Under the pieces are notes generated by a model. It was not told the origin of the DNA, did not search any database, and saw only the letters and a program-made list of their open reading frames with translations. From a virus, in the IMG/VR virus record IMGVR_UViG_3300030106_006452, positions 85,851 through 130,668 of that record: 44,818 nucleotides of DNA. The stretch is one strand, 5' to 3'. This document shows positions 12,232 through 40,684 of the stretch, in pieces. The stretch's first letter is position 1. Every line of letters starts with the position of its first letter. Made by a program: the position numbers and the translations under genes.

Positions 12232-12243
12232 TTTAATCTCCCT

Positions 12244-15210: not shown

Positions 15211-15211
15211 A

Positions 15212-15892: not shown

Positions 15893-15893
15893 T

Positions 15894-17271: not shown

Positions 17272-17449
17272 TGTTCGCCAACCTATCACTTAAGCTTTGT
17301 ATTTTTCTATCACACTCTTTGATCTCAGAAAAAAGAGATCTAGCCCGTTCTGGTGCAAGTTCAAAACACATCCGAACTACGTCCATCCAGTTAACATTAT
17401 TACGAGCACGAATTTGCTCTATTTCATCAATTATCTCTTGATCAGTCAA
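17252..17449 (-). CDS. Small protein of nonulosonate operon, unknown (65 aa)
   Basis: A 65-residue helical protein (MTDQEIIDEIEQIRARNNVN, then WMDVVRMCFELAPERAR and an 'I.e.D..I..L...LA' helix at the end). It sits between NeuB-type and NeuA-type genes, overlapping both (8 and 20 bases). I recall very similar 60-70 residue proteins in sugar clusters of marine bacteria that carry nonulosonate genes, and the recurring pattern 'i..Ir..NN..Wm..lr.....P..a' points to a conserved family. The function is unknown; a partner subunit of the synthase or cytidylyltransferase is a reasonable guess. Confidence 0.78.
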   Translation of the reverse strand: MTDQEIIDEIEQIRARNNVNWMDVVRMCFELAPERARSLFSEIKECDRKIQSLSDRLANNGPKID

Positions 17450-19416: not shown

Positions 19417-20255
19417 TGTAATAACTTTTTTTGCCTCTCAGAGAGTTTTTTATAATTGTTGCTTTTTTTATCTAGAATGTTTCCTTCTTTGGTATAATCA
19501 AAAGTTGACATATAGCCATTTACTATTTGAGGAGCGGTACTTCTTAAATAGCAAGCGACGGTCGCTATTCTTTCACCAGAAGCAACTTGACCTCCTTTGT
19601 GAAAACCATTTGAATCAAAAAAACAAACTGTGCCTTCTTTTCCGTCAGCAGTCAAAATATCTTCTTGAGGTATTTTATTTGTTGCCATCGAATTCAAATA
19701 TGCACCTTTAAAATATTTATCATTTATATTTGGCCATATTTTACTATTCTTTTTTCCAAAGCCGCTGCTTTTAACATAATGCAAGGCGCCATTTTGTATA
19801 GAAACATCATTATAGTAGACAAATATTTTTAAAATTTGCTTATCCTCTGTATCTCTGTGCCACCTTTGAGAATTTGACGGAGGAAACGGGTTCTCAGGGT
19901 GGTACATTATGGTGCAATTTCTTAATCTTATGTCTTCTTTTTGTAGATATTCTTCTGCGACATCTAGAAAAAAATCTTGTAAATAAAACTGAATTATAGG
20001 GGAATTATCTAAAGAAAGCCCTTCGCCCATTAATTGTTTGCTTTGAAATTCATAAAATTTATTTCTATCAACAATTGGATTCCCTTGTTTTAGTAGATTT
20101 TTTCTTTTTATTACGTGATCACGAGAAACAACTTCTTCTACAAAGGTTTTGTTTTTGTTATAAAGATTTGATATTGAATCACATTCCAATTCAGAAAAAT
20201 GAATTTTACAGAATCCAAAATCATTTAATTCTTTTATTATTTTATTTTTTTTCAT
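19413..20255 (-). CDS. PhyH-like Fe(II)/2-oxoglutarate dioxygenase (280 aa)
   Basis: The metal triad is readable: RWHRDTEDKQ gives His133 and Asp135, and CFFDSNGFHKGGQVASGERI gives His219, with Arg229 in the position that anchors 2-oxoglutarate. The segment IFVYYNDVSIQNGALHYVKSS is the typical phytanoyl-CoA dioxygenase strand ('.fiyL.dv....G.l.~v.gSH'). These enzymes hydroxylate small molecules, and members occur in natural-product and surface-sugar loci. No signal peptide. It sits between the aminotransferase and MBL-fold genes, so a sugar, an acyl chain or an amino acid attached to it could be the substrate; this is inferred. Confidence 0.85.
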   Translation of the reverse strand: MKKNKIIKELNDFGFCKIHFSELECDSISNLYNKNKTFVEEVVSRDHVIKRKNLLKQGNPIVDRNKFYEFQSKQLMGEGLSLDNSPIIQFYLQDFFLDVAEEYLQKEDIRLRNCTIMYHPENPFPPSNSQRWHRDTEDKQILKIFVYYNDVSIQNGALHYVKSSGFGKKNSKIWPNINDKYFKGAYLNSMATNKIPQEDILTADGKEGTVCFFDSNGFHKGGQVASGERIATVACYLRSTAPQIVNGYMSTFDYTKEGNILDKKSNNYKKLSERQKKLLQ

Positions 20256-20274
20256 TTTATTACTTTTTAAAAAT

Positions 20275-21615
20275 TTAACTGTGAAAATAATTCATACAAA
20301 AATGTAGTGCTCTTTGGTATACATCTGGCTTTCTTGAAAAAAGTATATGAGAGCCAATCTCTGCATTGTTCCAGTGTGCATATCTTGGGCCTTTTAAAAT
20401 TCTGTTTAGAAGTTTAAAATCTAATTTATAAGAGACATAATTTTCATCATTGAGGTCTTTTTCATCTATTATATCATACCCTTCACCACAGCAAGATATC
20501 TTAATCATTTTTTCTTCTGGTAAGTAAATATAAACATTTGTTTTACTAGAAAAGTTTAGTTCTTTTCTTTTATTGTTAAACCTTTCATAACTTTTTTCTA
20601 ATAAGGTGGATATATCACCCAAGCTTACTTGATTATCGTACTCATAATCATATTTTCTTTTTGATAAAACCTCTTGAATATATTTTTTCTTTTCTTCCGG
20701 GTCATAAGGCTCATATTTTTTTGATTGTGTTTCAGAGTTTAAATCAAAGTTTTGAGAATGATTTAATAGAATACCTTTTGAGTTGTTTTTAATATTTTTC
20801 TCATAAAAAGATAAAGCCTCTTGTAGAGTGGGCACTACTTTAAATTCTTCTAAATTTGCACGTTTTCCGCTGAGAGTGTAAGAGCCAGCAAAAGGCATAT
20901 AAAATTTTGGATTAACTTTATGTATATAATTTAAACCCATATTCAAAAATTTGTCTTTTTTTCTTTTTCCGTAAACTTTTAATTTGTCCTCATTTGAATA
21001 ATTTTGCCAACATTGCGGATATGATCCCGCGCCAGTGTATCCGACTAACAATAAATCAATTTTTTTAAAATCATTTAAAACAACCTCCAAGGTTTTTTCT
21101 GATAACTCAAAAGGACAATCGTTTATATTCAAAATTGTTTTATCGCCGTTGTCAAAAACAGCTAGTGAATCTATTGAAGTGGAGCCCATTTTCTTTTCCA
21201 TTATACCACATCCGTGAAATTTAAAACAACATTCTGGATTGCAGTTATCAGCGGCATAAATGGCCATATTTAAACCTTCGCCACACTTAAACAGTTCACC
21301 GTGATTTAATTCTATTACCTTTTTATCGAGCCGTTGGAGTCCCATTTTTAAAAACTTTGAATCATATGAATGTATTAATATTGGAATATCATTGTTAAAT
21401 TCAGCGAGGGATTTTCTACTCATATGATCAGGATGAATATGAGAAATATAAATATAATCTAAATCATTGAACTGTGAAAAATCAATATCTCCAAGCGGCG
21501 GATAGTGAGCCCAAGACCCATAATATTCACTATCACTTAACCAAGGATCAGTTAAAACTTTTGTATTTTTGTGCTCTATTAAAACACAAGCAGAAGATAA
21601 ATGGGTAACTCTCAT
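20275..21615 (-). CDS. Metallo-beta-lactamase-fold protein, UlaG/CMAH-like (446 aa)
   Basis: The N-terminus MRVTHLSSACVLIEHKNTKV, the TDPWLSDSEYYGSW block and the ISHIHPDHMS motif (HxHxDH, His59, His61, Asp63, His64) define an MBL-fold hydrolase with a two-metal site. 'TDPWL' with 'HiHpDH' resembles UlaG-type lactonases and the MBL part of CMP-N-acetylneuraminate hydroxylase (CMAH). A C-terminal extension (about residues 300-446) with charged, beta-rich sequence has no assigned fold. No Rieske cluster (CxH...CxxH) is visible, so a genuine CMAH reaction is unlikely. Position in the cassette suggests activity on a sugar, nucleotide sugar or lipid intermediate. No clear Shine-Dalgarno precedes the ATG. 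Confidence 0.75.
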   Translation of the reverse strand: MRVTHLSSACVLIEHKNTKVLTDPWLSDSEYYGSWAHYPPLGDIDFSQFNDLDYIYISHIHPDHMSRKSLAEFNNDIPILIHSYDSKFLKMGLQRLDKKVIELNHGELFKCGEGLNMAIYAADNCNPECCFKFHGCGIMEKKMGSTSIDSLAVFDNGDKTILNINDCPFELSEKTLEVVLNDFKKIDLLLVGYTGAGSYPQCWQNYSNEDKLKVYGKRKKDKFLNMGLNYIHKVNPKFYMPFAGSYTLSGKRANLEEFKVVPTLQEALSFYEKNIKNNSKGILLNHSQNFDLNSETQSKKYEPYDPEEKKKYIQEVLSKRKYDYEYDNQVSLGDISTLLEKSYERFNNKRKELNFSSKTNVYIYLPEEKMIKISCCGEGYDIIDEKDLNDENYVSYKLDFKLLNRILKGPRYAHWNNAEIGSHILFSRKPDVYQRALHFCMNYFHS

Positions 21616-21623
21616 TTGTATAT

Positions 21624-22622
21624 TTAGTTATCTAAATTTGATTCTTTATTACCTCTAGTAATAAGTTTTACTAATTCATCAACATTGTCACTCATATGAA
21701 GCGAGGAATTAAAGTGTGGACCAGTGTATTTAGCCCAGCGGTTATTATACGTCCTTTTAGTGTACTGTGGCCGTACACAAAGAAGATTAATATCGTTAAC
21801 TTCATAAGTAAAAGGCAGTTCTGTTTCAGCTAGCATATCTTCGTGAAGTTTTTCACCTGGGCGAAGACCCACTAAATCATAGGAAAAACTATTTTTATGA
21901 ATTTTTTCTATAGCTTTCAGTATGGTTGTCATACTATATGAACTGATCTCTGGAATAAATACTTCACCGCCCTCTGAATTATATGCGGCGCCGAGAACTG
22001 TGTCTACTGCGTCTTGAATAGTAAATAAAAATCGACTCATATCCAATGAAGTAACTTTTATGTTTTCATTCTTGGAAAGAAGGTCTAGCCACAAAGGAAT
22101 AAACGACCCTCGACTGCATATTACATTTCCATATCGAACAGAAGAAAAAACAGTATGATTACTATAATAATCATAATTAGTAAAAATTCTTTCAGCTATA
22201 AATTTTGAAGAGCCGTAAACGTTAACGGGCTGGCAAGCCTTGTCGGTAGACACCAAAATGCACTTATCTATTTTATTATTTAATGCAGCCTTGGCAACGT
22301 TTTCGCTTCCTTGGATGTTTGTTTTAACACACTCGTCCGGATGAAATTCCATATCATCAATTCTTTTTAAGGCCGCAGTGTGAATTATAACATCTGGATT
22401 TAATCTAGATAAACTAACATTTAGCTTATCATAGTCTCTAATGTCACCAATAACTCTCGTGACTCTTGGATCATTACCAAATGATAAAGCCTGTTTTCCC
22501 TCGTCACGGCTATACACAATTGGTTCACCGCCGTAGTTTAATATTCTTTTTACAACGGATTTACCTAGAGTTCCAGTGCCTCCAGTAATAAAAAATTTCT
22601 TGTTTTTTAAAAATCTATTCAT
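21624..22622 (-). CDS. pseB: UDP-GlcNAc 4,6-dehydratase-like protein, PseB/CapD type (332 aa)
   Basis: The NAD(P)-binding loop FITGGTGTLGKSV (residues 11-23), the HTAALKRIDDMEFHPDE block and STDKACQPVNVYGSSK with Thr126-Asp127-Lys128 and Tyr136-x3-Lys140 are the signature of short FlaA1/PseB/CapD dehydratases. They convert UDP-GlcNAc to a 4-keto-6-deoxy sugar, the first step to pseudaminic acid and to several other amino sugars. Length (about 330) equals that of PseB. The gene overlaps the second NeuA-type gene by 8 bases. An alternative is an FnlA/CapD-type epimerase-dehydratase used for FucNAc or QuiNAc; the two cannot be separated by eye. Confidence 0.88.
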   Translation of the reverse strand: MNRFLKNKKFFITGGTGTLGKSVVKRILNYGGEPIVYSRDEGKQALSFGNDPRVTRVIGDIRDYDKLNVSLSRLNPDVIIHTAALKRIDDMEFHPDECVKTNIQGSENVAKAALNNKIDKCILVSTDKACQPVNVYGSSKFIAERIFTNYDYYSNHTVFSSVRYGNVICSRGSFIPLWLDLLSKNENIKVTSLDMSRFLFTIQDAVDTVLGAAYNSEGGEVFIPEISSYSMTTILKAIEKIHKNSFSYDLVGLRPGEKLHEDMLAETELPFTYEVNDINLLCVRPQYTKRTYNNRWAKYTGPHFNSSLHMSDNVDELVKLITRGNKESNLDN

Positions 22623-23295
22623 TATTTAACCTATATAATGCCTCGTAAGTTTTAAATTCCCACTCATAGTCAATGTCAAATATTTCTTCTTCTTTCATTG
22701 ACCATAGCTTGATTTCTCCTGGGTTGTTAAAATCACCCATCCAAACTTCACCACCAATTGAATCAAGAGCACTAGCGTACAAACAATGTGCTGCTTCTTT
22801 CACAATATCAGCAGTTTTTGTATTCATCACTGCCTCTTTTAATGGAGTCATAAAGACATTATTGTGATCCCAATAATAATTTTTCTTCTCTACAACACCA
22901 AACATACCATTGCACTCTTCCTTGCAGTAATCAAAATAAAAATTTTCTATCGTTTCTTTCGTAAGCATTGGAGCACAAGCATTAACCATTATAACATATT
23001 TGTGAGGTATTTTATCCCACCACTCATACATTTCTGTCATTGGTGTTCCTTCTGACATAGCCGAAGCTTCGCTTCTGTGGTATATGTTAATCGGGTATTT
23101 TTTGCAAACATCAACCAACTCAGGCTCATAAACTGAAACCCAAATGTTGGAGTTGGGTATTTTTGAGTCGACTAGCTTTTGTATGCATAAGTCCATCAAA
23201 GTTGTTCCTGCAAATGGCCTTATCATTTTTTTTGGGCAACGCTGTGAAGATAATCTAGCTTGAATCATTACCGCTACATCGTCAACTCTTTTCAT
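22615..23295 (-). CDS. CMP-nonulosonic acid cytidylyltransferase, NeuA/PseF-like, copy 2 (226 aa)
   Basis: VMIQARLSSQRCPKKMIRPF is the nucleotide-binding loop, followed by MVNACAPMLTKETIE, EAAHCLYA and IFDIDYEWEFKTYEA; the metal-binding FDIDYEWEF block matches NeuA-type enzymes. The ATG at 23295 has a GAGGGT Shine-Dalgarno. It shares several local blocks (HRSE, AAHCLYA, FDIDYEW) with copy 1 at 16576-17271 but is diverged elsewhere, so the pair probably arose by duplication and now serves two different sugars or two steps. The order here is NeuB copy 2, then NeuA copy 2, then dehydratase, with 1- to 8-base overlaps. Confidence 0.82.
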   Translation of the reverse strand: MKRVDDVAVMIQARLSSQRCPKKMIRPFAGTTLMDLCIQKLVDSKIPNSNIWVSVYEPELVDVCKKYPINIYHRSEASAMSEGTPMTEMYEWWDKIPHKYVIMVNACAPMLTKETIENFYFDYCKEECNGMFGVVEKKNYYWDHNNVFMTPLKEAVMNTKTADIVKEAAHCLYASALDSIGGEVWMGDFNNPGEIKLWSMKEEEIFDIDYEWEFKTYEALYRLNNE

Positions 23296-24122
23296 TAATA
23301 CCCTCTTAATTTTTTTCTTGGCGCTAATTCTCCATCGGTAACTTTTTTAATCCCATCACCATACGCTAATTCTAACTCTCTAATACCCCTAACCATCTTA
23401 ATAAGACCTTGAGGTTCAACAGAGGACATATGGTCTGAGCCCCACATTGTTCTATCCAAAGTGATGTGTCTTTCAATGCAAGTGGCGCCAAGATAGATCG
23501 CCGCAACAGAAGTACCTAATCTGAATTCGTGGCCACTATAGCCAACTTCACAATTATACCTTTCTTTTAAGGTTTGAATACAACTTAAATTTAAATCTTC
23601 CAATGGTGCAGGATATGTAGAGTTACAATGTAACATCAAAGTCTCACAACCATCTAGCCATTCAACGGCTTGGTCGATCTCTTCATATGTGCTCATTCCA
23701 GTAGAAAAAATAATTTTTTTACCAGTAGCTGCAGAAGCTTTCATTAACTCTTCATTTGTGATCATAGCGGAAGGAATTTTAATCCACGGAATATCATACT
23801 TCATTAGGAAACTTAAACTATCCAAATCCCACGGTGAAGCTGACCATTCAATACCTTTTTCTTTACAGTATCTATCAATCTCGTCATATTCTTGCTTTTC
23901 AAACTCTACACGATATTTGTAATCAAGATAAGTCATTTCTCCCCAAGGAGTAGACCTCATTACGTTTTTTTGATGTTCTGGTACGCATACATCAGGATTT
24001 CTTTTTTGAAACTTTACAGCATCGCAGCCAGCAACTTTAGCTAGGTCGATTAATTGTTTAGCTATATCTAATGATCCGTTGTGGTTGATACCTATTTCTG
24101 CTATAACGTATACTTTTTTCAT
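23295..24122 (-). CDS. NeuB-type synthase without SAF domain, copy 2 (275 aa)
   Basis: The ATG at 24122 (MKKVYVIAEIGINHNGSLDI) is preceded 5 bases upstream by GAGGAA and is preferred to an upstream in-frame start at 24158 that would run into the neighbouring gene. The TIM barrel blocks are complete: AGCDAVKFQKRNP, WIKIPSAMI, MLHCNSTYPAP, VGYSGHE and IERHITLDRTMWGSDH. The protein ends at ELAPRKKLRGY, just where full-length NeuB proteins begin their linker to the antifreeze (SAF) domain, so the about 65-residue lid is absent. Such short NeuB proteins of about 280 residues are known in environmental bacteria and phages. Substrate and activity may differ from copy 1. Confidence 0.9.
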   Translation of the reverse strand: MKKVYVIAEIGINHNGSLDIAKQLIDLAKVAGCDAVKFQKRNPDVCVPEHQKNVMRSTPWGEMTYLDYKYRVEFEKQEYDEIDRYCKEKGIEWSASPWDLDSLSFLMKYDIPWIKIPSAMITNEELMKASAATGKKIIFSTGMSTYEEIDQAVEWLDGCETLMLHCNSTYPAPLEDLNLSCIQTLKERYNCEVGYSGHEFRLGTSVAAIYLGATCIERHITLDRTMWGSDHMSSVEPQGLIKMVRGIRELELAYGDGIKKVTDGELAPRKKLRGY

Positions 24123-24123
24123 T

Positions 24124-24981
24124 TTATTCCTCATAAAGAACAAAATTTCTATTAACATATGAGTTAATATTACTATTCTTTGTTAGTATTTCGATATCTA
24201 TATTATTATATTCAAGGTATTTTGTCAAGTGTATTTCTGATCTTTGGCCAATTTCCTGCTCGTGTTCTGGTAGATCTGCTTTCAGATTGTTCATATCAAA
24301 GTCATCAGTTACGTAATTCATTGTTGGCTTGTAACTTTCTTCTATGTCATAAAAATGTTTTATATTTCCATTTTGATCCAGCCTTGAACCATCCCAACCA
24401 AGAAAACTAACTTTTGTTACTCCAGTATGCACTAAAATAGGTGCAACCATATCATTCATAATACCTGGACCTATAATTCTATTATCAGGATTATTATCGA
24501 AAGAATTTTCATTCCATCGATTAGCATTACAAACAGACTTAGAATGACCCGCAGAAACATCAGATCCCCACAAAATATCAGGTTCATTTACAAAGTTCAA
24601 AGCGTATGTATTTTTTTTTATTAGATCAGCATTGACCCAGTTTTTATAATTAATAGGCATATCTTGCCTAGCAAAAACTAGATAATTTTTTTCTTTTGGA
24701 AAGTGAAAAGTATTGTAAGAGTTGGTTATACAGATGTCAACGATGTTTGGAAACTTTAACGCAGCAGTTTTTACAGCAAAAACTACCTTATTTTCGCAAA
24801 ATTTTTGTATCTTATCGACAGGAAACTCATTTAAGCTAACACCAGTTAGGAAACAAACAGCCTCCGAGCCTTGAAACATATTTTTGAATAATTTTGTCTT
24901 TTGCTGTCTAGTTCTTTTATTGGCAAGTTTTTTAAAAAAAAACCTTCTCTCTTTTAATGGAACTGTAAGCCATTTATTCAT
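24124..24981 (-). CDS. DUF115/GT42-like putative glycosyltransferase, copy 2 (285 aa)
   Basis: Similar in architecture to the gene at 12777-13646: a Rossmann-like strand (AVCFLTGVSLNEFP), an intermediate VVFAVKTAALKFPN strand, a GPGIMNDMVAPILV block and KVSFLGWDGSRLD, where copy 1 has KQIGFVGMDGYY. These shared landmarks suggest a common DUF115/Maf or GT42-like fold, though pairwise identity looks low. The ATG at 24981 is 1 base beyond the glycosyltransferase gene stop region and overlaps it by 8 bases. A transferase moving the CMP-activated product of the neighbouring NeuA copy 2 to an acceptor is the obvious hypothesis. Not supported by a recognisable catalytic triad. Confidence 0.52.
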   Translation of the reverse strand: MNKWLTVPLKERRFFFKKLANKRTRQQKTKLFKNMFQGSEAVCFLTGVSLNEFPVDKIQKFCENKVVFAVKTAALKFPNIVDICITNSYNTFHFPKEKNYLVFARQDMPINYKNWVNADLIKKNTYALNFVNEPDILWGSDVSAGHSKSVCNANRWNENSFDNNPDNRIIGPGIMNDMVAPILVHTGVTKVSFLGWDGSRLDQNGNIKHFYDIEESYKPTMNYVTDDFDMNNLKADLPEHEQEIGQRSEIHLTKYLEYNNIDIEILTKNSNINSYVNRNFVLYEE

Positions 24982-25828
24982 TTGCTATTTCCATAACCTT
25001 GTGGGGCATCTCTTCGCAAATTCTCTCAATTTCATCAATAAGCTCCAAGCCAGATAAATTAAACCATGGTTCTGAGGCTGCACCAATGAGTTTTTTTTGA
25101 TAAAATACTCTTACATTTAACATTTTGGCCTCAACTATTATTCTAGCGCAAGTCTCTAGATGCCCAGTGAAGAAAATAAAACTTTCGTGTTTAGAAAGCT
25201 TTTCTAAAAATTTATGATAATTTTTGTCTTTTATTAATTCAAAATTTAAATCTCTGTATTTACAGTATTCTATGGCCGTAGCTTTTCTTTTGATAGGATT
25301 ATCTGAGTCTAAAATTGCTATTGTATCAACCTTGTTATTAGAAGAAAATTTACGCATAACATTTAAGTCTTCTTTAGACCATATGGAGCAACCTAAATTA
25401 TGTACATTTTTCAAACCAGTATTATCAACAAAAACATCTTTTGACAACTTTGTTAAAAATAGATTTTTCTTTGCAGCTTTAAAAAATTCTATGTTGCATA
25501 ACATATGTTCTGGAGCTTTAAAATTTGGAAAAAATATTGGGTTTCTTGTTTTTAAATATTTGTGATCTTGTTCGTATATTAGATAAGTTAAATTATTAAT
25601 TGCATATTTTTTTGACTCTTCTGATAGTAAAACAAAATTACCAAAAACAAATATATCATTTTTTCTTTGTTTCATAAATTCAATTGTAACTTTAGAGGAG
25701 TTAATTAATTCTATTTCAGCTCCGATATTTTGCAATGAATTAGCAAGAGTTTCTGCATTTAATTCTGCGCCACCTTGGAATTCACTAAAAAAATAATCCA
25801 TTACAAAAACATACTTATGCAACTTCAA
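24974..25828 (-). CDS. GT-B-fold glycosyltransferase-like protein (284 aa)
   Basis: A GT4-like N-terminal loop, FFSEFQGGAELNAETLANSL, is the classic '.GG.e.....L...L' pattern of GT-B glycosyltransferases, and the C-terminal half keeps an ESFIFFTGHLETCARIIVEA strand matching the sugar-nucleotide binding region, although the canonical ExxxxxE motif is only partial. It is short (284 against 350-400), so the N- and C-domains are both trimmed or the enzyme is degenerate. The start is uncertain: TTG codons at 25828 and 25822 keep the first beta strand (KYVFVMDYFF), while the first ATG is at 25801. It overlaps the next upstream gene by 14 bases. Role: probably addition of a sugar to a surface glycan, inferred. 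Confidence 0.58.
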   Translation of the reverse strand: MKLHKYVFVMDYFFSEFQGGAELNAETLANSLQNIGAEIELINSSKVTIEFMKQRKNDIFVFGNFVLLSEESKKYAINNLTYLIYEQDHKYLKTRNPIFFPNFKAPEHMLCNIEFFKAAKKNLFLTKLSKDVFVDNTGLKNVHNLGCSIWSKEDLNVMRKFSSNNKVDTIAILDSDNPIKRKATAIEYCKYRDLNFELIKDKNYHKFLEKLSKHESFIFFTGHLETCARIIVEAKMLNVRVFYQKKLIGAASEPWFNLSGLELIDEIERICEEMPHKVMEIANE

Positions 25829-27074
25829 GCTCCTCTAAAGAATTAATCCACTCTAAATAATTTGTAGTTTCTTCATCGATAATGGCATTTTTCATATCAG
25901 AATAAACTTTTTCTTTAGAGAATTGTTTTAAAATCCACTTTTGAAGTCTTTTTGCCTGTGATTTAAATCTTCCGTAATCTTTATAGACTTCACGTAATTT
26001 CATTTTATATGACCCTTGTTGCGCATATGCCCACATAGAGTCTTTTTGTATAACACCCTGCCAAACTGCATCAGGTGTAACAGGCTGAAGATTATATTCA
26101 ACTTTTGCAAAATGAGCCTTCATCTTTTCTTTGCCTTTTTTATCTTTTGTCGGCTTATAAAGAAAATCTAAATGACCTGACCAATCTGTTGCTATTACTG
26201 GAAGGCCACTATATGCAGCTTCAAAAAGTGGAAGTCCATACCCCTCACCTCGTGTTAGACTCACTAAACAGTTTATGTCATCGTGACTGTATAGAGAATG
26301 CATTTCTTCATCATCTAGATCTCCGTGAAGCAAATATACTTTACATTTTCTATTTTTATATTTGGAAAGAGACTTTTGCAGTTCAGAGTAAATTACATTT
26401 CTGTCTAATATGCAACCTCCTCTTAGAAAAGTTTTAACGACCAAACCAACATCTGGATTATCGATAAACTCTTCCACAAACCAATTAACCGTTGCGCCCA
26501 AATTTTTTCTTGGACCCCATTGGGCCACAGTTAAAAAATTAAATTTAGTTGAGAGGTTTAAATCTAATTCTGGTAAAGAATCATATTTTTTAACCGGATA
26601 ATGTACAACATCAATGTTTTTTTTGCACTTAAGCTCTAAACGCTGGCCCGTATTCCTATCAACAGCTTCATAAACTGTGTCCAAGAAAATATTTTTTGAA
26701 TGCTCTGAAATAGTTATAATTCTATCCATTTCATTGCACTTCTGTAGCCACTCAGGAGCAACTTTTGTTGTTTCAATACCAGCAGTAACACCAATGTTAA
26801 TTGGCGCCATTTTTTGCCATTCATTTGGTATTGTAACTTGAATTGACATATCATATTGACCATTCTGTTGGCCATATAAAGCAGTTTTGTGTATTATGGA
26901 ATCTAACCAATTTCTCTCTTCGTTATTTTCCCAAACCCAAGAAGATTCTCCCCAGTTAACCGGCATTACATAAAGATCTAAGCCTTCCACTTCTCGCAGC
27001 GCTCTTATTACAAAACGACAATGCTCGCCATAGCCTGTTCTGGTTAATGCTGGACCTCTAACTAAAACTTTCAT
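25815..27074 (-). CDS. GT4-family glycosyltransferase (419 aa)
   Basis: An N-terminal strand and Gly-rich turn, VLVRGPALTRTGYGEHCRF, starts the GT-B fold. The C-terminal donor-binding half shows FLTVAQWGPRKNLGATV, the EEMHSLYSHDDINCLVSLTR segment and GEGYGLPLFEAAYSGLPVIA, which is the E-x7-E signature of GT4 enzymes (GLPLFEAAYSGLPVIATDWSG in outline). The ATG at 27074 has an AAGGAGG Shine-Dalgarno and overlaps the next gene's stop in a TAATG arrangement. These enzymes use nucleotide-sugar donors with retaining chemistry. The acceptor is unknown. Length is normal for the family. Confidence 0.87.
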   Translation of the reverse strand: MKVLVRGPALTRTGYGEHCRFVIRALREVEGLDLYVMPVNWGESSWVWENNEERNWLDSIIHKTALYGQQNGQYDMSIQVTIPNEWQKMAPINIGVTAGIETTKVAPEWLQKCNEMDRIITISEHSKNIFLDTVYEAVDRNTGQRLELKCKKNIDVVHYPVKKYDSLPELDLNLSTKFNFLTVAQWGPRKNLGATVNWFVEEFIDNPDVGLVVKTFLRGGCILDRNVIYSELQKSLSKYKNRKCKVYLLHGDLDDEEMHSLYSHDDINCLVSLTRGEGYGLPLFEAAYSGLPVIATDWSGHLDFLYKPTKDKKGKEKMKAHFAKVEYNLQPVTPDAVWQGVIQKDSMWAYAQQGSYKMKLREVYKDYGRFKSQAKRLQKWILKQFSKEKVYSDMKNAIIDEETTNYLEWINSLEELEVA

Positions 27075-28342
27075 TATGCGACCTCCTTAAGAACCCAACG
27101 TTTTTTATATTTTCGAGTGTCCCAAGATCCTTCCTCTTCATGAAGCTTTGTCATTGTATCAACCCAAGTTTTATTAAAGTTATCAAAATTATAGTTCTTC
27201 ATAACGTGCTTTCTTCCTTCTGCGCCCATTTGTTCTCTCTTTTCTTTGGAAAAGTTAAACATAGTTACAAACGCATTGACAACATCATCTCCGTTTAGTC
27301 TGTCTTCATAAATCCACGGAATTTGCTGTGATCCAATGATTGCTTTAGAAGCCGGGTAAAGAGGAATTCCAAATTCATTTTCCCCATCTACAATTTGTTC
27401 TTGTAGACCGCCGGTCATATTGACTATAATGGGCGTCCCACAAGATAAAGATTCCAAAGTAGCAAGTCCAAAGCCCTCTGCATCTGCAATATTCACAGTA
27501 CAATCTGCCATATTATACATCAAAGCTAACTGTTTTAAATCGACTTTTTGCTGGCTAAACAATACTTCACCATTTGTTAAGCCAAGGTGCTCTATAATTG
27601 CTTGCAGATCTTGTCCATTGGGATCTTTAACTTCTGTATGCATTACGAGTGATGCTTTGTCGTGGCCTACTTTATCAAGAAATTCCTTAAACCAAAAAAT
27701 TAAAGAACCAGATTGTTTTCTTCTTGCATTTCTGTTATTCCAAAAGAAAACAAATTTATCTGGGTCGTAAAATTCTCCAAAAACATTTTTTTTGAATTTT
27801 TCTAGATTTTCTTTGTTTTCTACTGGTGTGAAAATCTCACTATTGACCGCGTGTGGAATATATTTAGAATTAACTTCCGGGGCCACAGTTTTAACAATAT
27901 CATCTGTTACTTTTGAGATTGTCGCGATGAGGTCATTTGACTCATAAAATTGTTTATTATAGGTAGGATAGGGGTAGTTATCCCAAACGTGATAATAAAC
28001 CATAGGCATGAGAGGTCTAATTTCATTTTCCATCTCCCATAGCCAGGACCAGAATCGAGGGTCAGTCATAAACCAAAGAATATCCGGCTTTTCTTGGCGA
28101 ATTAAAGATCGCACCATTTCTTTGTTGCCATATCCATCAACTGGGAACATTATCCAATCGTCTCCATATTGTTCTGTTTTGATTGGATCATATTTGGGAT
28201 GTTTAATTGCGCCGCCGAAAGAGCGAATTTGGAACTTGCCAGTTTTTAATAACGCTTCACAAATATACCTAGTTTGAGTTCCAACGCCACTAGGACTGAG
28301 AGGCATATCACTAAGAGTGAAGACCTTAATTTTTTTATCCAT
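27074..28342 (-). CDS. GT4-family glycosyltransferase (422 aa)
   Basis: The N-terminal loop MPLSPSGVGTQTRYI (residues 14-28) and the donor-binding half, KFVFFWNNRNARRKQSGSLI then ALMYNMADCTVNIADAEGFG and LATLESLSCGTPIIV, show a complete GT-B glycosyltransferase with the GT4 E-x7-E motif. It is the upstream member of a tandem GT4 pair and shares the TAATG overlap with the next gene. The Shine-Dalgarno GAGG lies 8 bases before the ATG. It is the promoter-proximal end of the glycan cassette. Donor and acceptor sugars are unknown. Confident at family level. Confidence 0.88.
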   Translation of the reverse strand: MDKKIKVFTLSDMPLSPSGVGTQTRYICEALLKTGKFQIRSFGGAIKHPKYDPIKTEQYGDDWIMFPVDGYGNKEMVRSLIRQEKPDILWFMTDPRFWSWLWEMENEIRPLMPMVYYHVWDNYPYPTYNKQFYESNDLIATISKVTDDIVKTVAPEVNSKYIPHAVNSEIFTPVENKENLEKFKKNVFGEFYDPDKFVFFWNNRNARRKQSGSLIFWFKEFLDKVGHDKASLVMHTEVKDPNGQDLQAIIEHLGLTNGEVLFSQQKVDLKQLALMYNMADCTVNIADAEGFGLATLESLSCGTPIIVNMTGGLQEQIVDGENEFGIPLYPASKAIIGSQQIPWIYEDRLNGDDVVNAFVTMFNFSKEKREQMGAEGRKHVMKNYNFDNFNKTWVDTMTKLHEEEGSWDTRKYKKRWVLKEVA

Positions 28343-30528: not shown

Positions 30529-31842
30529 TTAAAGAATTTTAGACGCAATAGTAGCAACTTTAGATCTTTCACCCTTTAAAAGAGTTACGTGCCCAGAAAC
30601 ATCAAAACTTTTAAATTTTTCAACTGCGTGAGTTAAACCATTTGAAGTTTCATCTAGATAAACATTATCAATTTGTTCTACATCACCAGTTAAAATAATT
30701 TTTGTTCCTTCGCCAACGCGAGTAAGTATGGTTTTAAGCTCATGAGCTGTCAAGTTTTGTGCTTCGTCAATGATAATAAAAGCGTTAGCTATTGATCGTC
30801 CTCTGATATAAGTTAAGGCTTCTACTTCAATCTTACCTCTATCCATATAATTCTCAAGAGTGGCTTTATCATTGGCCATTAGGTACTCCAAATTATCACG
30901 AATAGGTGCAACCCAAGGTGACATTTTTTCTTCTATTGTCCCTGGTAAGAAGCCAATATCTCTACCCATCGGCTGTATTGGCCTGGAAACCACTAAACGA
31001 CTATAAGTTTCTTTCTCGACAACCTGGCTAAGACCGGCTGCAATTGCCATTAAGGTTTTACCACAACCAGCCTTACCCACTAACGTAACTACATTTATTT
31101 TTGGGTCTTCTAACAAATCCATGGCGAAAATCTGCTCTTTGTTTCTAGGTTTCAAACCCCAAAGTCTTTTTTTATTGCCGGGATTAAGCAACTTTAAGGG
31201 TTTCTCATAAGACTCAAATTTTCCTAAAGCAGTTTTCTTTTCATTTTGATTTGATATTAACATCAAAAATTGATTTGAATTTAATTTTAACTCTTCTTCC
31301 TCTATGTAGACTTCTTCTCCGTTATAAAACCTATCCAAGACAGGCTCATCAACCAAGTGAGTTATGAAGCCAGTGTAAATATTATCTGTATCTTTTACAA
31401 CTTGATCTGATTGGAAATCCTCGGTCGTCAAACCCAGAGAATCGCACTTAACACGCATGTTAATATCTCGTGTGACCACGACTACTTTTCTTTTTGGGTT
31501 TTCATTTTTTTGGTTCAACGCAACGCTAATAATCTCATTATCAGGAACAGAAAGATCAAAATCTTCTGGAATGCCCTCTCTTTTGACCATCTTCACGCAT
31601 ATTAGACCCTTACCCTTATCTATTCTCACGCCTTTAGACAAACTACCTTTTTCACGGAGAGCGTCAAGATTGCGAATAAGCGTTCTTGCGTTTGTGCCCA
31701 CGCCGTCTTGTCTTTTTTTGTTGTTGTCTATTTCTTCTAGAACTTTAAGAGGAAGGACGATATCGTTATTACCATAAGATCGTATACAATTCACATCCGT
31801 TAAGCAGACGCTAGTATCAAGAATATAAATTTTTTTAGCCAT
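30529..31842 (-). CDS. phoH: PhoH-like ATPase with N-terminal PIN domain (437 aa)
   Basis: Residues 1-140 form a PIN ribonuclease-like domain with acidic positions in YILDTSV (Asp9), VLEEID (Glu37), VPDNEI (Asp101) and TRDINM (Asp126). Residues about 215-437 are the PhoH ATPase: LVGKAGCGKT (Walker A, 255-263), IIIDEAQ (Walker B, Asp359, Glu360) and TGDVEQID as sensor. The PIN-PhoH order and 437-residue length match bacterial PhoH2-type proteins (RNA helicase/nuclease activity has been reported for some). PhoH is among the most widespread genes of marine phages. Its role in infection is not known. It is the last gene before the only strand switch of the window. Confidence 0.92.
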   Translation of the reverse strand: MAKKIYILDTSVCLTDVNCIRSYGNNDIVLPLKVLEEIDNNKKRQDGVGTNARTLIRNLDALREKGSLSKGVRIDKGKGLICVKMVKREGIPEDFDLSVPDNEIISVALNQKNENPKRKVVVVTRDINMRVKCDSLGLTTEDFQSDQVVKDTDNIYTGFITHLVDEPVLDRFYNGEEVYIEEEELKLNSNQFLMLISNQNEKKTALGKFESYEKPLKLLNPGNKKRLWGLKPRNKEQIFAMDLLEDPKINVVTLVGKAGCGKTLMAIAAGLSQVVEKETYSRLVVSRPIQPMGRDIGFLPGTIEEKMSPWVAPIRDNLEYLMANDKATLENYMDRGKIEVEALTYIRGRSIANAFIIIDEAQNLTAHELKTILTRVGEGTKIILTGDVEQIDNVYLDETSNGLTHAVEKFKSFDVSGHVTLLKGERSKVATIASKIL

Positions 31843-34763: not shown

Positions 34764-36749
34764 TTACACTCCAAGTTTCTGTAATAAATAGTTTAACGCC
34801 TCATTAACTTCTTTTTCAGAAACTTTTTTACGTTTTCTTGGTTTAGCGCCGAGAGGCAGAGCATATCCTTCGACAGATCCGCCGGCCATTGAAGAGATTT
34901 CCTCTAATTCTTCTTCATCTTCTTCTAATATTTCATCAACTAACCCACGAAAAATACCCAAGAAGGGTTCATTAACCTCCTTTAGTTGTTGCTTTACCAA
35001 ATTTGTTATATATCCTGCTCTATCTTTTGAAGTATCAGGTAGAAATCGCTCAATGTCGTCAATAGCTCTTAGAGTATTTCTAAAGTCGGTTGCGCTTAAA
35101 ACTTCACCAACCGGGTCAAAAGCATAGTCAAGAGGGTTAAGAACCTCGGCGTCTTCAACATATTTTTGAACATTACCAGCAAAGCGTTCTGCAGCATCTC
35201 CACCTTTTGTCGAGGCGCCAAGAATGATCCTTGTTCCTTTCATTTCTGGGGAGTTACCATATTCCATTGCTGCTCTTACAGGTGAAGCCGTTTGTGCAAT
35301 CTCAACATCGACATTGGTAAGATTGGCATCATCTAAATAAAGGTTTAAAATTTCTTCAGCAGTCTTTGCTGTGATTCCATCTTTTTCTTTTGGACTAACT
35401 AAAACAACTACTCTATCAGCAATTTTAGAGTAATGTTTAATCATATCCAGATGGCCTCTGTGCGCAGGCTTAAACTTTCCTGGTAAAATAGCGACAGTTT
35501 CGCCTTTATTTTGCTCTCGAAGTAATTCCTTTACCATCTGTGGGATTTTACCTCTTCCGTACTTAAATAACCCCAAAAGTTGGTTCATTGGGGCAAAGTT
35601 TCCGGTAAACTTATACAACTGCCCATCGTACTGGAAAACAAAACCCTCAACAACGGTATCAATATTACTGTGGTGTTTAAGTTTATCAAGCTGTCGAACT
35701 AAAATATCTTGTGCTGATTCTTTTTCTGGCCCGTCATAGGTTTGTATAGCTCGTATAGCCTCCTCAGTTTCGTTTTTAAGTCTTTCTACTTCGGCTTCGT
35801 TATCTAGGATATAAGCGCTTTTTAATCCTCGAAGAAGCTCCACAGCAAAGTCGTGAATAGCCATTTCAATTGGCTGTACAAGCTTAGCAATAACAAATTT
35901 TGAATTTTTATTAAAAGCTGATATCTTTGCTTTTTCTTCTTTTTCCATCCCCCTGGCTATTTGAGACACAGTAGGGGCACTTTTATCGCCCAACATTCTT
36001 CTAACAAGAAGTTCAACTTTTTCGCTATCTAGGTCTGGAAATGTTTTTGCAGTATATGGTGTTAATTTGTTTTTTAAATAATCATTAATGGTCATATTGC
36101 CTGAATAGCCGGTGTTTTCAATACGACTTAATGTTTTTTGTATAAAACTTTCATCTGTAATTTTATTAAGCGTTAAAAATGCAGTTCTTCTAACTGAGAA
36201 GTCTTGATCCGCAGTTGCATTTTCAAATTTATCAATTACACTGTCAAGAAAGTTAGATTCTTTCTCATTTGCTACCACTTCTAAAGAATTATCTTGCTTA
36301 TTATACTTTTTATGACCGCCCCTGTGTATATTTAAAACGTTTTCATCATAATTAACAACATTAGGCGCAACAGGCCCCTGGATCTCTGTATTATAGAATA
36401 TCTCTCCATTAGGGCCAAAAATCTTAGCCTTTTCACCATCAGAAAGAGAATCAAGAGCCTTCACATAAGCATTAAAAGCTGTAACATAAGCTTTTTTAGC
36501 TTTTTCACCGCCCTTGAACTCACGATTAATAAGATCTTCAAAAGTCATCCCACCACGAGACATATCACCTTTATTTCTCGCAGCACGAGGCTTCCCGTCG
36601 ACATAACCAAGAAATATATTATAACCGTCAGTCTTTTCTGTTCCTACAAGTTCACCTTTGGCGGCTTTTTGTAGGATGTCGGCCATTTCGTTAAAAGTGA
36701 GATTACGATTATCGTAAAGGTGTGATAAGTGTCCTGCTACGCCGCCCAT
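34764..36749 (-). CDS. Ligase-like nucleotidyltransferase fused to NMNAT/cytidylyltransferase-like domain (661 aa)
   Basis: Residues 1-385 carry ligase/capping-enzyme landmarks: GTEKTDGYNIFLG with the KxDG lysine (Lys39), GEIFYNTEIQGP (about 115-126) and VVEGFVFQYDGQLYKFTG (366-383, motifs IV and V). Residues about 415-560 show an HxGH-type nucleotidyltransferase: AILPGKFKPAHRGHLDMI (GxFxPxHxGH, 420-437) and LSATDFRNTL (SxTxxR-like, 551-560). Covalent lysyl-AMP ligation and NMNAT-type adenylyl or cytidylyl transfer are known chemistries of the two families. The same pairing occurs in conserved proteins of marine T4-like phages. The C-terminus (618-661) is a separate tail with SSMAGGSVEGYALPLG and a basic KPRKRKK patch. 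Shine-Dalgarno AAGGAAAA is present. Substrates are unknown. Confidence 0.78.
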   Translation of the reverse strand: MGGVAGHLSHLYDNRNLTFNEMADILQKAAKGELVGTEKTDGYNIFLGYVDGKPRAARNKGDMSRGGMTFEDLINREFKGGEKAKKAYVTAFNAYVKALDSLSDGEKAKIFGPNGEIFYNTEIQGPVAPNVVNYDENVLNIHRGGHKKYNKQDNSLEVVANEKESNFLDSVIDKFENATADQDFSVRRTAFLTLNKITDESFIQKTLSRIENTGYSGNMTINDYLKNKLTPYTAKTFPDLDSEKVELLVRRMLGDKSAPTVSQIARGMEKEEKAKISAFNKNSKFVIAKLVQPIEMAIHDFAVELLRGLKSAYILDNEAEVERLKNETEEAIRAIQTYDGPEKESAQDILVRQLDKLKHHSNIDTVVEGFVFQYDGQLYKFTGNFAPMNQLLGLFKYGRGKIPQMVKELLREQNKGETVAILPGKFKPAHRGHLDMIKHYSKIADRVVVLVSPKEKDGITAKTAEEILNLYLDDANLTNVDVEIAQTASPVRAAMEYGNSPEMKGTRIILGASTKGGDAAERFAGNVQKYVEDAEVLNPLDYAFDPVGEVLSATDFRNTLRAIDDIERFLPDTSKDRAGYITNLVKQQLKEVNEPFLGIFRGLVDEILEEDEEELEEISSMAGGSVEGYALPLGAKPRKRKKVSEKEVNEALNYLLQKLGV

Positions 36750-36753
36750 AGAT

Positions 36754-37005
36754 TTATTTTCCTTCTTCTAATATTCTTACTTGTTCTTCTAAAAGAGAAA
36801 TTTTATTTTCGAGAGTTCTAACAACTCTTTTTATTTCAAGTAAGTTTTTACGAGCAACTGATAGTTGCCTACTTTCCTTTTGACTTTTTGGTCGCACTTC
36901 GTCTAAGATACGAAGAACAGACTCGACGTAAGCACGAGCAGTAGGATTACTTTTAACTTCTCCTATCAAAAAGTCCCTGGTCATTTTTCTTAAATCAACT
37001 TTCAT
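36754..37005 (-). CDS. Small coiled-coil protein (83 aa)
   Basis: Two helices, the second a long coiled coil (RVVRTLENKISLLEEQVRIL). Helix one carries a basic MKVDLRKMTRDFLIGEVK segment. No recognised family. Its ATG overlaps the zincin gene's TAA (TAATG), with AAGGA 7 bases upstream, and it lies 4 bases before the ligase/NMNAT-like gene, so it may be an adaptor for one of them. Confidence 0.68.
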   Translation of the reverse strand: MKVDLRKMTRDFLIGEVKSNPTARAYVESVLRILDEVRPKSQKESRQLSVARKNLLEIKRVVRTLENKISLLEEQVRILEEGK

Positions 37006-37739
37006 TAGTTGTCCTTGGACATTTCAGCAAGAATATCACGGACAGCATCACGAAGTGCGGACTCGTCTAAATCTTCTAGAACTGCTTCTTTTGCCTCAGT
37101 TGACATTGGATGAGCTTCCTCTAAAGCATCTTCTTTTTCTTCTTCATCGAGTTCTTCTGGTGCTTCTTCTAGTTGAGCAGTTTTGTAATCAGCGTTAGAC
37201 AGATCATAAGTACCCATTCCTTCGCTTAAGAATGATTTTTCTTTTGGCTTGTATCCCCATTTATCCATAAGCATTTCGCCAAATTCTTTATTTCTCCAGT
37301 TTTTGTAAGACATTTTCTGTTCTCCTTTGGTGTCTTTATCTTTATAATTAGTTTCGCCAAGTTGTTTCTTTCTACTATCTTCAAAATCACGAAAACACAT
37401 ATTTCCTTTTTCATATGCCTCTCGTTCCATTTCACGCATATGTGGATCTTTCTGAGCATAGCCAGGAGTGGTTGGCCCTGCACTCATTAGATCTCCGCGC
37501 TCGTTTTGTAGATGATGTACTAGCTCGTGCGCTAACGAGCGAAGACAATCTTTCATATGCCTACCAGTAATATAGACTGTGATAGACTGTTCCGTTGGAT
37601 CATAATGAGCAGTTTTGCCAAAAGGTTTTAAGCTATTTTGTTTATCTTGTGTAAAAATTATGGTGGGTTTGTTTTGAAGTTTATATCGTTGATGAAAAAA
37701 CTCTAATAAATCGCTGGCATAGGTTTTTATTTTGTTCAT
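37005..37739 (-). CDS. Zinc metallopeptidase-like protein (HELVHH), 244 aa
   Basis: The active-site motif SLAHELVHHLQNE (His71, Glu72, His75) is followed 30 residues later by MEREAYEKG, whose Glu104 or Glu107 could be the third zinc ligand of a gluzincin-like fold ('E.eAy..G'). The C-terminal 100 residues are acidic and helical (EEAPEELDEEEKEDALEE) without an assigned fold. No signal peptide, so it probably acts inside the cell or in the head. Phage zincins of this 'HELVHH' type are common in marine T4-like genomes and have no known function. The second such protein is at 29576-30244. Confidence 0.75.
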   Translation of the reverse strand: MNKIKTYASDLLEFFHQRYKLQNKPTIIFTQDKQNSLKPFGKTAHYDPTEQSITVYITGRHMKDCLRSLAHELVHHLQNERGDLMSAGPTTPGYAQKDPHMREMEREAYEKGNMCFRDFEDSRKKQLGETNYKDKDTKGEQKMSYKNWRNKEFGEMLMDKWGYKPKEKSFLSEGMGTYDLSNADYKTAQLEEAPEELDEEEKEDALEEAHPMSTEAKEAVLEDLDESALRDAVRDILAEMSKDN

Positions 37740-37762: not shown

Positions 37763-38761
37763 TTAGATCTCATGAGGGGACCGAGAAAAAATAACAGACT
37801 TAATAAAAGGTACATTGTCCAGTCTTTGTCTAATGTATTCTTCCATATGGTTAGCATCAATGAAACGTTTGAGAGTACTATTTTCATTAATAGCAAATTG
37901 GCCGACATTTTCTAGAACATCCATTTTGTTAAAAACAACGTGCGTTGCTCCGTTTATATTAATTGCTTTTTGTAAAAAGTTTAAATTCATCCAGTTAACC
38001 TGCCGAACACGTCCTGTTGTCGCTCCGTATTCTTGACCCTCTTCTTGTATTTTATTAAACACCTCACCTGCAGGTTGGAACTTCTTAGACCCAACATAAG
38101 TTTCATAAGATTTAGCTACACCATAAATACTTCTTACTGTTTGAGGTGGAACACCATTCATAAGAGCTGCAGCCGAAATACAATTAGATGAAGTAACATA
38201 AGGGTAAGAGCCCCAGTCAATATCGAGCCCAAAGCCTTGGGCGCCCTCAAAAAGAATGATAGGATTTGTGCTACGCTCGTGCAATTCTTCATAAAGATCA
38301 AGAACATATGATCTCAGTTCTGCAACATCTTCGGCTCTCACACCGGTTCTGGCAAATTTATCACGATAAGCAGGACCATTGCCGCGTTTAGTTGTGCCTA
38401 TTTTTGTTTCTCTTGCTTCCTCTTCAATATGGTTTTGCGTAATAATGTGAGCATTTTTAGCGATAAATACAAGACCATCTGTATCAATACCGCCTTGTTT
38501 TAACTCTTCAATCTCTTTGAAAAACTGTTCCACGTTGACGACACACCCCGGACCAATAATGGACCGAATGCCAAAAAATACACCGGCAGGTATGTGATGA
38601 GTAATAAATTTTTTCCCTCTATGAAAGATAGTATGCCCTGCGTTGCAACCACCATTGTATCTGATAACATGCGTATATTCTCCTGTTCTACAAAGATGAT
38701 GTGTGACCTTTCCTTTTCCACAATCACCATATTGTAAATCTACAACAATATCTGAAATCAT
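37763..38761 (-). CDS. Short PurA/PurZ-family adenylosuccinate synthetase-like enzyme (332 aa)
   Basis: The ATG at 38761 (MISDIVVDLQYGDCGKGK) follows GGAGGG by 5 bases; a TTG at 38773 would overlap the Shine-Dalgarno and is rejected. P-loop GDCGKGK with Asp13 at the position of the catalytic Asp13 of E. coli PurA, AGHTIF with His43, the IMP/phosphate loop GTTKRGNGPAYRDKFARTG (122-140), FEGAQG, YPYVTSSN, TTGRVRQVNW and NKMD (the guanine-recognition motif) are all present. PurA joins IMP and Asp using GTP. At 332 residues it is much shorter than bacterial PurA (about 430) and close to the archaeal and phage PurZ size. PurZ makes the 2-aminoadenine precursor from dGMP. Which substrate this one uses is open. 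Confidence 0.85.
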   Translation of the reverse strand: MISDIVVDLQYGDCGKGKVTHHLCRTGEYTHVIRYNGGCNAGHTIFHRGKKFITHHIPAGVFFGIRSIIGPGCVVNVEQFFKEIEELKQGGIDTDGLVFIAKNAHIITQNHIEEEARETKIGTTKRGNGPAYRDKFARTGVRAEDVAELRSYVLDLYEELHERSTNPIILFEGAQGFGLDIDWGSYPYVTSSNCISAAALMNGVPPQTVRSIYGVAKSYETYVGSKKFQPAGEVFNKIQEEGQEYGATTGRVRQVNWMNLNFLQKAININGATHVVFNKMDVLENVGQFAINENSTLKRFIDANHMEEYIRQRLDNVPFIKSVIFSRSPHEI

Positions 38762-38783
38762 AAAACCCTCCAAATGAGGTTTT
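38762..38783 (-). promoter_or_regulatory. Hairpin covering the purA/purZ-like Shine-Dalgarno
   Basis: The minus strand reads AAAACCTC ATTTG GAGGGTTTT directly before the ATG at 38761: an 8-base-pair stem with one bulged G and a 5-base loop, whose right arm contains the GGAGGG ribosome-binding site. It could hide the start of translation or act as a weak terminator of the upstream lipoprotein gene. A TATAAT sequence lies just upstream (near 38784-38789). Confidence 0.45.
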
Positions 38784-38815
38784 ATTATAACATAAGAGAA
38801 TAAATAGTTAAAGAG

Positions 38816-40684
38816 TTAGTTTTCGTCACAGGCAGTTTCATCAAGGATGTCAAGAAGGTTGGAATACATTTGCACGGCCGTGGGGACTAAATCAAACTTT
38901 TTTGCTTTTGGAAGCGCATCGACAATATTGTCCCAATAAACATTTCCAAAGCCAGCACTGAAAACATAAAAGCTAAATCCAGGCGCTGCGTTCATTGAGT
39001 CTATGACATCACTTTGTGTTATCTTTGGAACCAAGTAGCTTTGAGGCTCTTCATCTGTAAAAAGTATTATTACTCTTTTTGTGTTTTGTCTCCATTCTAT
39101 ATCCCAGTTTTCTTTTTCGGGATCTGAAACATTAACACCACCCCAGCCATCAAACCAAGCAGCAGAGTTAATGTCAAACGTTCCAGGCCCTATTAAACTT
39201 TGCAAAGAAAGATAAATAGCATCTAAGCTTTGTTCGTCTGCGCCATCCATCTGTGTCGTGTCAATGTTTGAAAATGAAGTCATGAAATTTTCAAAGTCAG
39301 TTAAATTAATTTCTATTTTCAGCTTTTCAACGTTTTTTGTTAATCCGGCATCATATCCATCAACAGCAATTAATACTAGACCCCATTTTATAATCTCGGA
39401 ATCACTATAATGCACAGCAAACTGACTTAGCGCTGACAACACAGCGTTAATATCATTAAGCATAGACCCAGACATATCGACAATAAGAAGAATATCAGTG
39501 GGTTCAAGTTCTTTTTCTGTTACACCATCACAGTTTGTATCTTCGCCATTACAGATATCTTCGTCCATCGGAATAATTTCGTCCATACACAACTCAGCCA
39601 CGAATGTACCATTTTGAAAATCGCTGCCCCACACACCTTGATTACAATAAAAGTTTCCAGGTTTGCATATACCAACGCCTAGTGTCTCAGGTGGGCCACT
39701 GTAGCAGATAGAGAATAAATCTTCATCAACTAACTGATTACAGTTATCATCATGATTGTTACAATCTTCTGGCGCAACCGCTCCTAAATATGGATCACAT
39801 TTTTGATTTTCTGAAACTAGTTCAGGGAACCAATGACATGAGGCAAGACAGTCGCTCATTTTAAAGCTTGTGCAAGTTTGATCTTCGCACTCGCAAGTTT
39901 TATATCCCTCGCCGCACACCAAAGGTGTCTCTGTACATGGAGCTAATATTCCAACGTCTTTTTCAGTACAGAAACATTCTATATCTTCATCTATTAACCC
40001 ATCACAGTCATTATCAAGACCATCACATATCTCATCAAAAGGTTGCTTTGCTGTACACAGCCATTGTCCTTGTATACAATATTCCAAATCATCTTCACAA
40101 GCAGTTGAACATGCCTGGACAAGATCTTCATCTGTTAAACCATCACAATCATTATCTATATTATCGCAAACCTCTGCCGGTACAGGACCACACAAACCAC
40201 AATTATTTAATTGTCCTTCATCAATTTCACCATCGCAATCGTCGTCGATACCATTACAGACCTCTTCTGTGCAGTTAACAATACATTCAGTATACTGTAT
40301 TAAACCCTTAACACAAACTTTGTCTTGTATTCCTGGTTCGCCTTCTTCGTTTAAACATGGAGCATCTTTTTCAATTAAATACTGAGTTGGATTACATTCA
40401 AGCTGCTGTTCGCATTCGCCTTGAAAAACTATGGTATTCGGTTCTTCACATTTATTAACACAGATTTGTTTTCGCCAGACCTCACTTAAATCTTCACAAA
40501 AGTACCAGTCGCATTTTACACACGGATCTTGCCATATAGAATACGTGTCTTTTTCAGCTGTATCATCAATAACATCTTTAACATCGGGAACTGCAGGCAC
40601 AGGACTAGCAGCGACTGGTTCTTTTTTAACGGAACAGGAGGATAACAATATTGTACTAATAAGAAGAAACATCTTCATCTTCAT
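38816..40684 (-). CDS. MopE-motif and VWA-domain lipoprotein (622 aa)
   Basis: A signal sequence (KMFLLISTILLSS) ends at Cys17, a good lipobox (LSSC) with Ser at +2, which predicts an outer-membrane lipoprotein. Five copies of the 'C.g.DnDCDG..DEd' metal-binding motif follow, at about 141-157, 171-187, 218-234, 306-322 and 376-392, e.g. CDGLDNDCDGLIDED; these are typical of MopE-like proteins of myxobacteria and relatives and may bind Ca2+ or other metals. From about residue 396 a von Willebrand A domain follows: IVDMSGSM (MIDAS Asp403, Ser405, Ser407) and LFTDEE (Asp544). Many cysteines suggest disulfide-rich extracellular structure. Such proteins are usually bacterial; in a phage it implies alteration of the host surface. 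No clear Shine-Dalgarno precedes the ATG. Confidence 0.9.
   Translation of the reverse strand: MKMKMFLLISTILLSSCSVKKEPVAASPVPAVPDVKDVIDDTAEKDTYSIWQDPCVKCDWYFCEDLSEVWRKQICVNKCEEPNTIVFQGECEQQLECNPTQYLIEKDAPCLNEEGEPGIQDKVCVKGLIQYTECIVNCTEEVCNGIDDDCDGEIDEGQLNNCGLCGPVPAEVCDNIDNDCDGLTDEDLVQACSTACEDDLEYCIQGQWLCTAKQPFDEICDGLDNDCDGLIDEDIECFCTEKDVGILAPCTETPLVCGEGYKTCECEDQTCTSFKMSDCLASCHWFPELVSENQKCDPYLGAVAPEDCNNHDDNCNQLVDEDLFSICYSGPPETLGVGICKPGNFYCNQGVWGSDFQNGTFVAELCMDEIIPMDEDICNGEDTNCDGVTEKELEPTDILLIVDMSGSMLNDINAVLSALSQFAVHYSDSEIIKWGLVLIAVDGYDAGLTKNVEKLKIEINLTDFENFMTSFSNIDTTQMDGADEQSLDAIYLSLQSLIGPGTFDINSAAWFDGWGGVNVSDPEKENWDIEWRQNTKRVIILFTDEEPQSYLVPKITQSDVIDSMNAAPGFSFYVFSAGFGNVYWDNIVDALPKAKKFDLVPTAVQMYSNLLDILDETACDEN

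Follow-up and report, generated by a model that had tools for sequence, protein, structure and literature searches.

A large T4-like bacteriophage, known from metagenomes only, carries a gene whose product is very probably a genuine adenylosuccinate synthetase (PurA) of short form, which, judged by its sequence, is predicted to be active and to have an auxiliary metabolic role. The gene product, termed here P0001, is encoded in the IMG/VR record IMGVR_UViG_3300030106_006452, which comprises 130,668 bases; its bases 85851-130668 form the 44,818-nucleotide stretch that was analysed ("the window"). The first-pass annotation of the window had offered two readings, namely a PurA that raises adenylate synthesis, or a PurZ0-type or in-between enzyme; the former has stood, while the latter has fallen on Asp13, on the tree and on the lack of companion genes for 2-aminoadenine (Z) DNA. 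From the sequence, its residues, its phylogeny, the absence of Z companions and the presence of PurB in two related viral genomes, all of which were observed directly, we infer the catalytic activity, substrate, physiological role and benefit to the phage. The proposed mechanism is ordinary, and the subfamily shared by viruses and Patescibacteria is new. Asp13 and His41 would act as the catalytic pair while GTP phosphorylates IMP at O6, the phosphate would then be displaced by aspartate to form adenylosuccinate, and the host lyase (PurB) would make AMP from it. During infection, IMP would be steered to AMP and ATP and, via RNR, to dATP for a phage genome of 37% G+C.

The gene, its product and its virus

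P0001 is read from a minus-strand frame of 332 codons, running from its ATG to the stop, and the plus-strand frames opposite to it are short or interrupted. The gene and the features around it are summarized in Table 1. A promoter directly upstream of purA is possible from the sequence, though within chance: two promoter-like sites were found in the stretch against a shuffle mean of 4.6, with no excess over chance.

Table 1. Features at and around the short purA gene (positions within the window)
Feature	Position	Strand	Basis or remark
661-aa protein, weak cytidylyltransferase-like match; downstream neighbour	34764..36749	-	synteny kept
83-aa protein; downstream neighbour	36754..37005	-	synteny kept
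244-aa protein with HELVHH zinc-peptidase-like motif, without family match; downstream neighbour	37005..37739	-	adjoins purA in most near relatives
purA-like gene, P0001, short adenylosuccinate synthetase (putative), 332 aa	37763..38761	-	PF00709, open frame, active-site residues, tree
GGAGG, ribosome-binding-site-like, 5 bases before the ATG	38767..38771	-	sequence
Promoter-like TTAACT-16-TATAAT, 10/12 match, upstream of purA	38784..38811	-	weak
622-aa putative lipoprotein, MopE metal-binding repeat and VWA match; upstream neighbour	38816..40684	-	adjoins purA in close relatives

The Pfam model PF00709 (Adenylsucc_synt) matches P0001 with 277.5 bits (E 2.1e-82, cut-off 27), and the motifs QYGDCGKGK (with Asp13), NAGHT (with His41) and NKMD (278-281) are all found in it. 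The annotation's description of a 332-residue PF00709 protein keeping Asp13 and NKMD is thus confirmed, as is its remark that the length is near that of archaeal PurA and phage PurZ (339 residues in Pyrococcus horikoshii PurA and 343 in phiVC8 PurZ). P0001 scored 277.8, 256.8 and 206.6 bits with the NCBIfam PurA models, each under its curated cut-off (402, 395.55 and 368, respectively), and 143 bits with the PurZ model. Since these models of known subfamilies miss the short form, we assign P0001 to the PurA family at large and to no named equivalog, and its place below every PurA cut-off marks a divergent subfamily. The AlphaFold2 model of P0001 (pLDDT 88.4, pTM 0.89; poor at residues 178-191) has its best PDB matches in PurA (E 5e-27), with a TM-score of 0.82/0.81 to the P. 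horikoshii structure 5k7x, while PurZ and PurZ0 structures follow at E 2e-18 and 2e-17, about nine orders of magnitude worse; because the fold is common to PurA, PurZ and PurZ0, the structure match is supporting evidence only.

Terminase, portal, major head protein and tail sheath of the record are all T4-like. The most similar terminases are found in the immuto group of Flavobacterium phages (45.5%), followed by that of Microcystis phage Mel-JY01 (44%), and the head protein is nearest to those of the uncultured phage LR756508, Mel-JY01 and Rhodothermus phage RM378; a Bacteroidota host would be a guess from these nearest isolates. Among the replication and nucleotide genes of the record are those for DnaB, RecA, a 5'-3' exonuclease and a gp32-like protein, for a PolIII alpha that bears a PHP domain and is truncated where the record ends, for a class II RNR-like protein, and for a PolA-family protein of 395 aa that matches PF00476 weakly; the G+C of the phage genome is 0.37. 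An N6/N4 DNA methylase gene also lies among the replication genes, outside the window (11364-12251 of the record, minus strand). Within the window, a long phage sugar/glycan cluster (13647-28342, minus strand) holds two NeuB (sialic/pseudaminic-type) synthases, WbqC, a DegT aminotransferase, a hexapeptide transferase, Polysacc_synt_2 and glycosyltransferases, and a PhoH-like protein with an N-terminal PIN domain is encoded at 30529-31842 (minus strand).

Active site, phylogeny and companion genes

The roles of the catalytic, IMP and aspartate residues are established for the E. coli PurA, and P0001 was mapped residue by residue onto the Salmonella enzyme in E. coli numbering. It keeps Asp13, Lys16, Asn38, His41, Thr42, Thr128, Thr129, Arg143, Gln224, Thr239, Val273, Thr300, Thr301, Gly302, Arg303, Arg305, Lys331 and Asp333, so that all catalytic and main IMP-site positions inspected are of PurA type, and these residues show little or no variation across an alignment of 79 viral and 36 Patescibacteria rows. 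The differences from the enterobacterial enzyme are Glu14 to Cys, Arg304 to Val and Arg306 to Gln; the first two of these sites are variable in the relatives of P0001 as well. The rows of PurZ and PurZ0, on the other hand, have Ser13, Ser128, Thr298, Val300 and Lys/Gln/Asn302, to which PurZ adds Phe331 and Asn/Gln333. Serine replaces Asp13 in all 147 phage PurZ/PurZ0 sequences, while Asp13 is kept in 99% of the E. coli-type PurA group (PMC12884076). Serine at position 13 was found neither in P0001 nor in any relative with an intact start, all of which have Asp13: the motif GDx(G/A)KGK is present in 95 of 96 distinct viral relatives, serine occurs in none, and the exception is a fragment cut at its N-terminus, which argues that the conservation is not due to chance.

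These residues bear on the reading in which P0001 is a PurZ0-type enzyme that uses GTP to convert dGMP in the first step to 2-aminoadenine DNA. Its short length and its phage origin would fit such an enzyme, and so would the guanine motif, since P0001 carries the GTP-type (N/T)KxD as NKMD (its relatives have NKxD or SKxD) and would use GTP as donor, as PurZ0 does. We nonetheless consider this reading highly improbable, given the Asp13 in place of the serine found in all phage PurZ/PurZ0 and the TTGR that replaces their VTxK/Q, together with the tree and the companion genes described below.

Two trees were built, a larger one of 101 rows and a smaller one of 44 rows from which the two longest branches were removed. 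In the 101-row tree, the short PurAs of viruses and Patescibacteria fall into a single clade (100/99) next to bacterial PurA and a PurA from a huge phage, the Patescibacteria proteins being a separate clade of their own (99/93), and PurZ and PurZ0 are placed with archaeal PurA (100/99). The 44-row tree likewise unites the viral and Patescibacteria proteins (100/100) and PurZ with PurZ0 (100/98), and leaves P. horikoshii PurA outside the bacterial and viral group (100/99), although the deeper order of the trees is provisional, with archaea represented by a single partial row and bacterial PurA by few. Forcing P0001 together with PurZ/PurZ0 in the 44-row tree was 32 log units worse and rejected (p-AU 0.037). 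The first-pass annotation had proposed a tree of PurA, PurZ and PurZ0, and had named a firm position within bacterial PurA as one half of what would speak against its Z-DNA idea; P0001 falls with PurA and outside PurZ/PurZ0.

The same annotation saw no DatZ, MazZ or DpoZ in the window, and this holds for the whole record of 130,668 bases, with known Z phages positive as controls. The DatZ family PF12917 was detected neither in the record nor in 21 related records (control phiVC8 positive), and neither DUF550 (PF04447, MazZ; controls S-2L and Acinetobacter phage vB_AbaSI_2 positive) nor DUF5664 (PF18909; controls MeganNoll and vB_AbaSI_2 positive) was found in the record or in the searched relatives; MazG (PF03819) gave nothing above its cut-off. 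Searches with DatZ, MazZ, DpoZ and PrimPol of known Z phages gave no convincing match in the record, where only PurZ as query finds P0001, and the 395-aa PolA-family protein was not found by phiVC8 DpoZ, nor did the Goodman Pol I match. dUTPases are encoded in nine related viral records and not in this one. As the records may be incomplete, the absence of companions carries weight only when seen across many of them. Residue 13, the tree and the companions searched for lead us to reject membership of P0001 in PurZ or PurZ0.

Flavobacterium phage MaF61 encodes a 447-aa "adenosuccinate synthetase" (PQ858689.1, 118051-119394; 23052-24395 on the plus strand of stretch L256) with serine at the Asp13 position (GSSGKGK) and a PurZ-like NFVNY; in the tree, the protein joins PurZ through a long branch. 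In the same genome (168 kb) there are genes for an adenylosuccinate lyase that carries ASL_C, for a guanylate kinase, an RNR and a B-family DNA polymerase, and for MazG-like and HD_3 proteins. MaF61 may thus use 2-aminoadenine and a B-family polymerase without having been recognised as a Z phage, and a 2026 paper naming it uses none of these terms. The "PurA-like" protein of Mycobacterium phage Bread (Bixzunavirus; 980-2308 on the plus strand of stretch L161) keeps Asp13, and at the IMP and aspartate residues it has Met for Arg143, TTW at 239-240 and WQGK for TTGR. The Bixzunavirus protein is probably a very divergent enzyme, and some records label it 2-aminooxy adenylosuccinate synthetase.

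Relatives in viruses and Patescibacteria

The first of two scans of viral contigs found 201 relatives; the top 80 share 58-95% identity with P0001 and, if complete, are 328-340 aa long. The second, looser scan found at least 528. The nearest cellular relatives come from Patescibacteria (56-62% identity over the aligned length). The short form is the sole PF00709 gene in all 14 Patescibacteria genomes searched, 12 of which also encode a Lyase_1 family protein, either PurB or a related lyase, and in two Patescibacteria loci read by eye the neighbours of the short purA look cellular, not viral. Because short length is common to the PurA of Patescibacteria, it gives no hint of PurZ.

Such nearest cellular relatives could fit a host gene brought into the record by contamination or mis-assembly. 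We regard this as having next to no probability: the same phage neighbourhood surrounds purA in many independent contigs, with the constant order g116 - purA - g114 - g113 - g112 among near relatives, and the record itself carries T4-like terminase, capsid, portal and sheath genes. Contamination is refuted by this conserved phage synteny. In more distant relatives, purA occupies other sites, often adjoining PolIII alpha.

Two related viral records, of 168 kb (IMGVR_UViG_3300023174_000056, G017) and 79 kb (G024), hold both purA and purB. The purB of the former lies at 1105-2385 (minus strand) of stretch L167, and its product scores 442.5 bits against the adenylosuccinate lyase equivalog cut-off of 446. 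No Lyase_1 protein (PurB) was found in the record of P0001, meaning that this phage supplies the first step only, and the use of deoxy-IMP is compatible with the sequence; both points would suit an IMP-using PurA with a second role beyond AMP supply, for example as a drain on IMP or GTP or with deoxy-IMP as a substrate. It is an improbable reading all the same, with residues of the ordinary IMP type, PurB also in the two relatives, and the short form as the only PurA of Patescibacteria. A short PurA serving AMP supply is the reading that we retain.

Most of the sampled diversity of the short PurA lineage consists of viral sequences, and the 101-row tree nests the Patescibacteria inside the viral rows. 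We put forward, as a doubtful proposal, that the lineage was exchanged between Patescibacteria and large T4-like viruses of marine and freshwater habitats, and that the sole PurA of these bacteria may be virus-derived. The 44-row tree does not reject the viral rows as one clade (p-AU 0.337), so no direction of transfer is claimed.

In the literature consulted, we did not find a short Patescibacteria-like PurA subfamily described in large T4-like viruses, and found little on viral purA/purB as auxiliary genes. Short "PurA-like" proteins of phages are easily confused in virome annotation, and true PurA can be separated from PurZ/PurZ0 among them: neither length nor phage origin is a reliable criterion, and the distinction has to be made by residues 13, 128, 302 and 333 together with the companion genes. 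Viral contigs hold many members of the subfamily, which current models do not name, so a dedicated model would correct virome annotations of adenine supply, and the tie of the subfamily to Patescibacteria raises a testable question of gene exchange.

Comparison with known systems

The closest counterpart of P0001 is the short PurA of Patescibacteria (Paceibacteria and Kaiserbacteria, e.g. CP066682.1), which has 330-360 aa, the motif GD(C/S)(G/A)KGK and the same active-site residues, but is cellular, the sole PurA of its genome and in a separate clade. Bacterial PurA of the E. coli/Salmonella type (about 430 aa) shares Asp13/His41 and the IMP, aspartate and GTP residues at about 35% identity, whereas P0001 is about 100 aa shorter and has Cys14, Val304 and Gln306. 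P. horikoshii PurA (2d7u, 5k7x) is alike in length (339 aa) and fold, yet it is 35% identical and falls outside the bacterial and viral group in both trees. Among the phage enzymes, PurZ0 of Gordonia phage Archimedes (7vf6) resembles P0001 in fold, in its guanine-type Asp333 and in being a phage gene, but is only about 25% identical, with Ser13, Ser128, VTN302-K303 and the company of DutZ/DmtZ/DUF5664. PurZ of phiVC8 (6fm1) and S-2L (7odx) is similar in fold and length and differs by its 25-29% identity, its Ser13, the Asn/Gln333 of an ATP user and the company of DatZ/MazZ.
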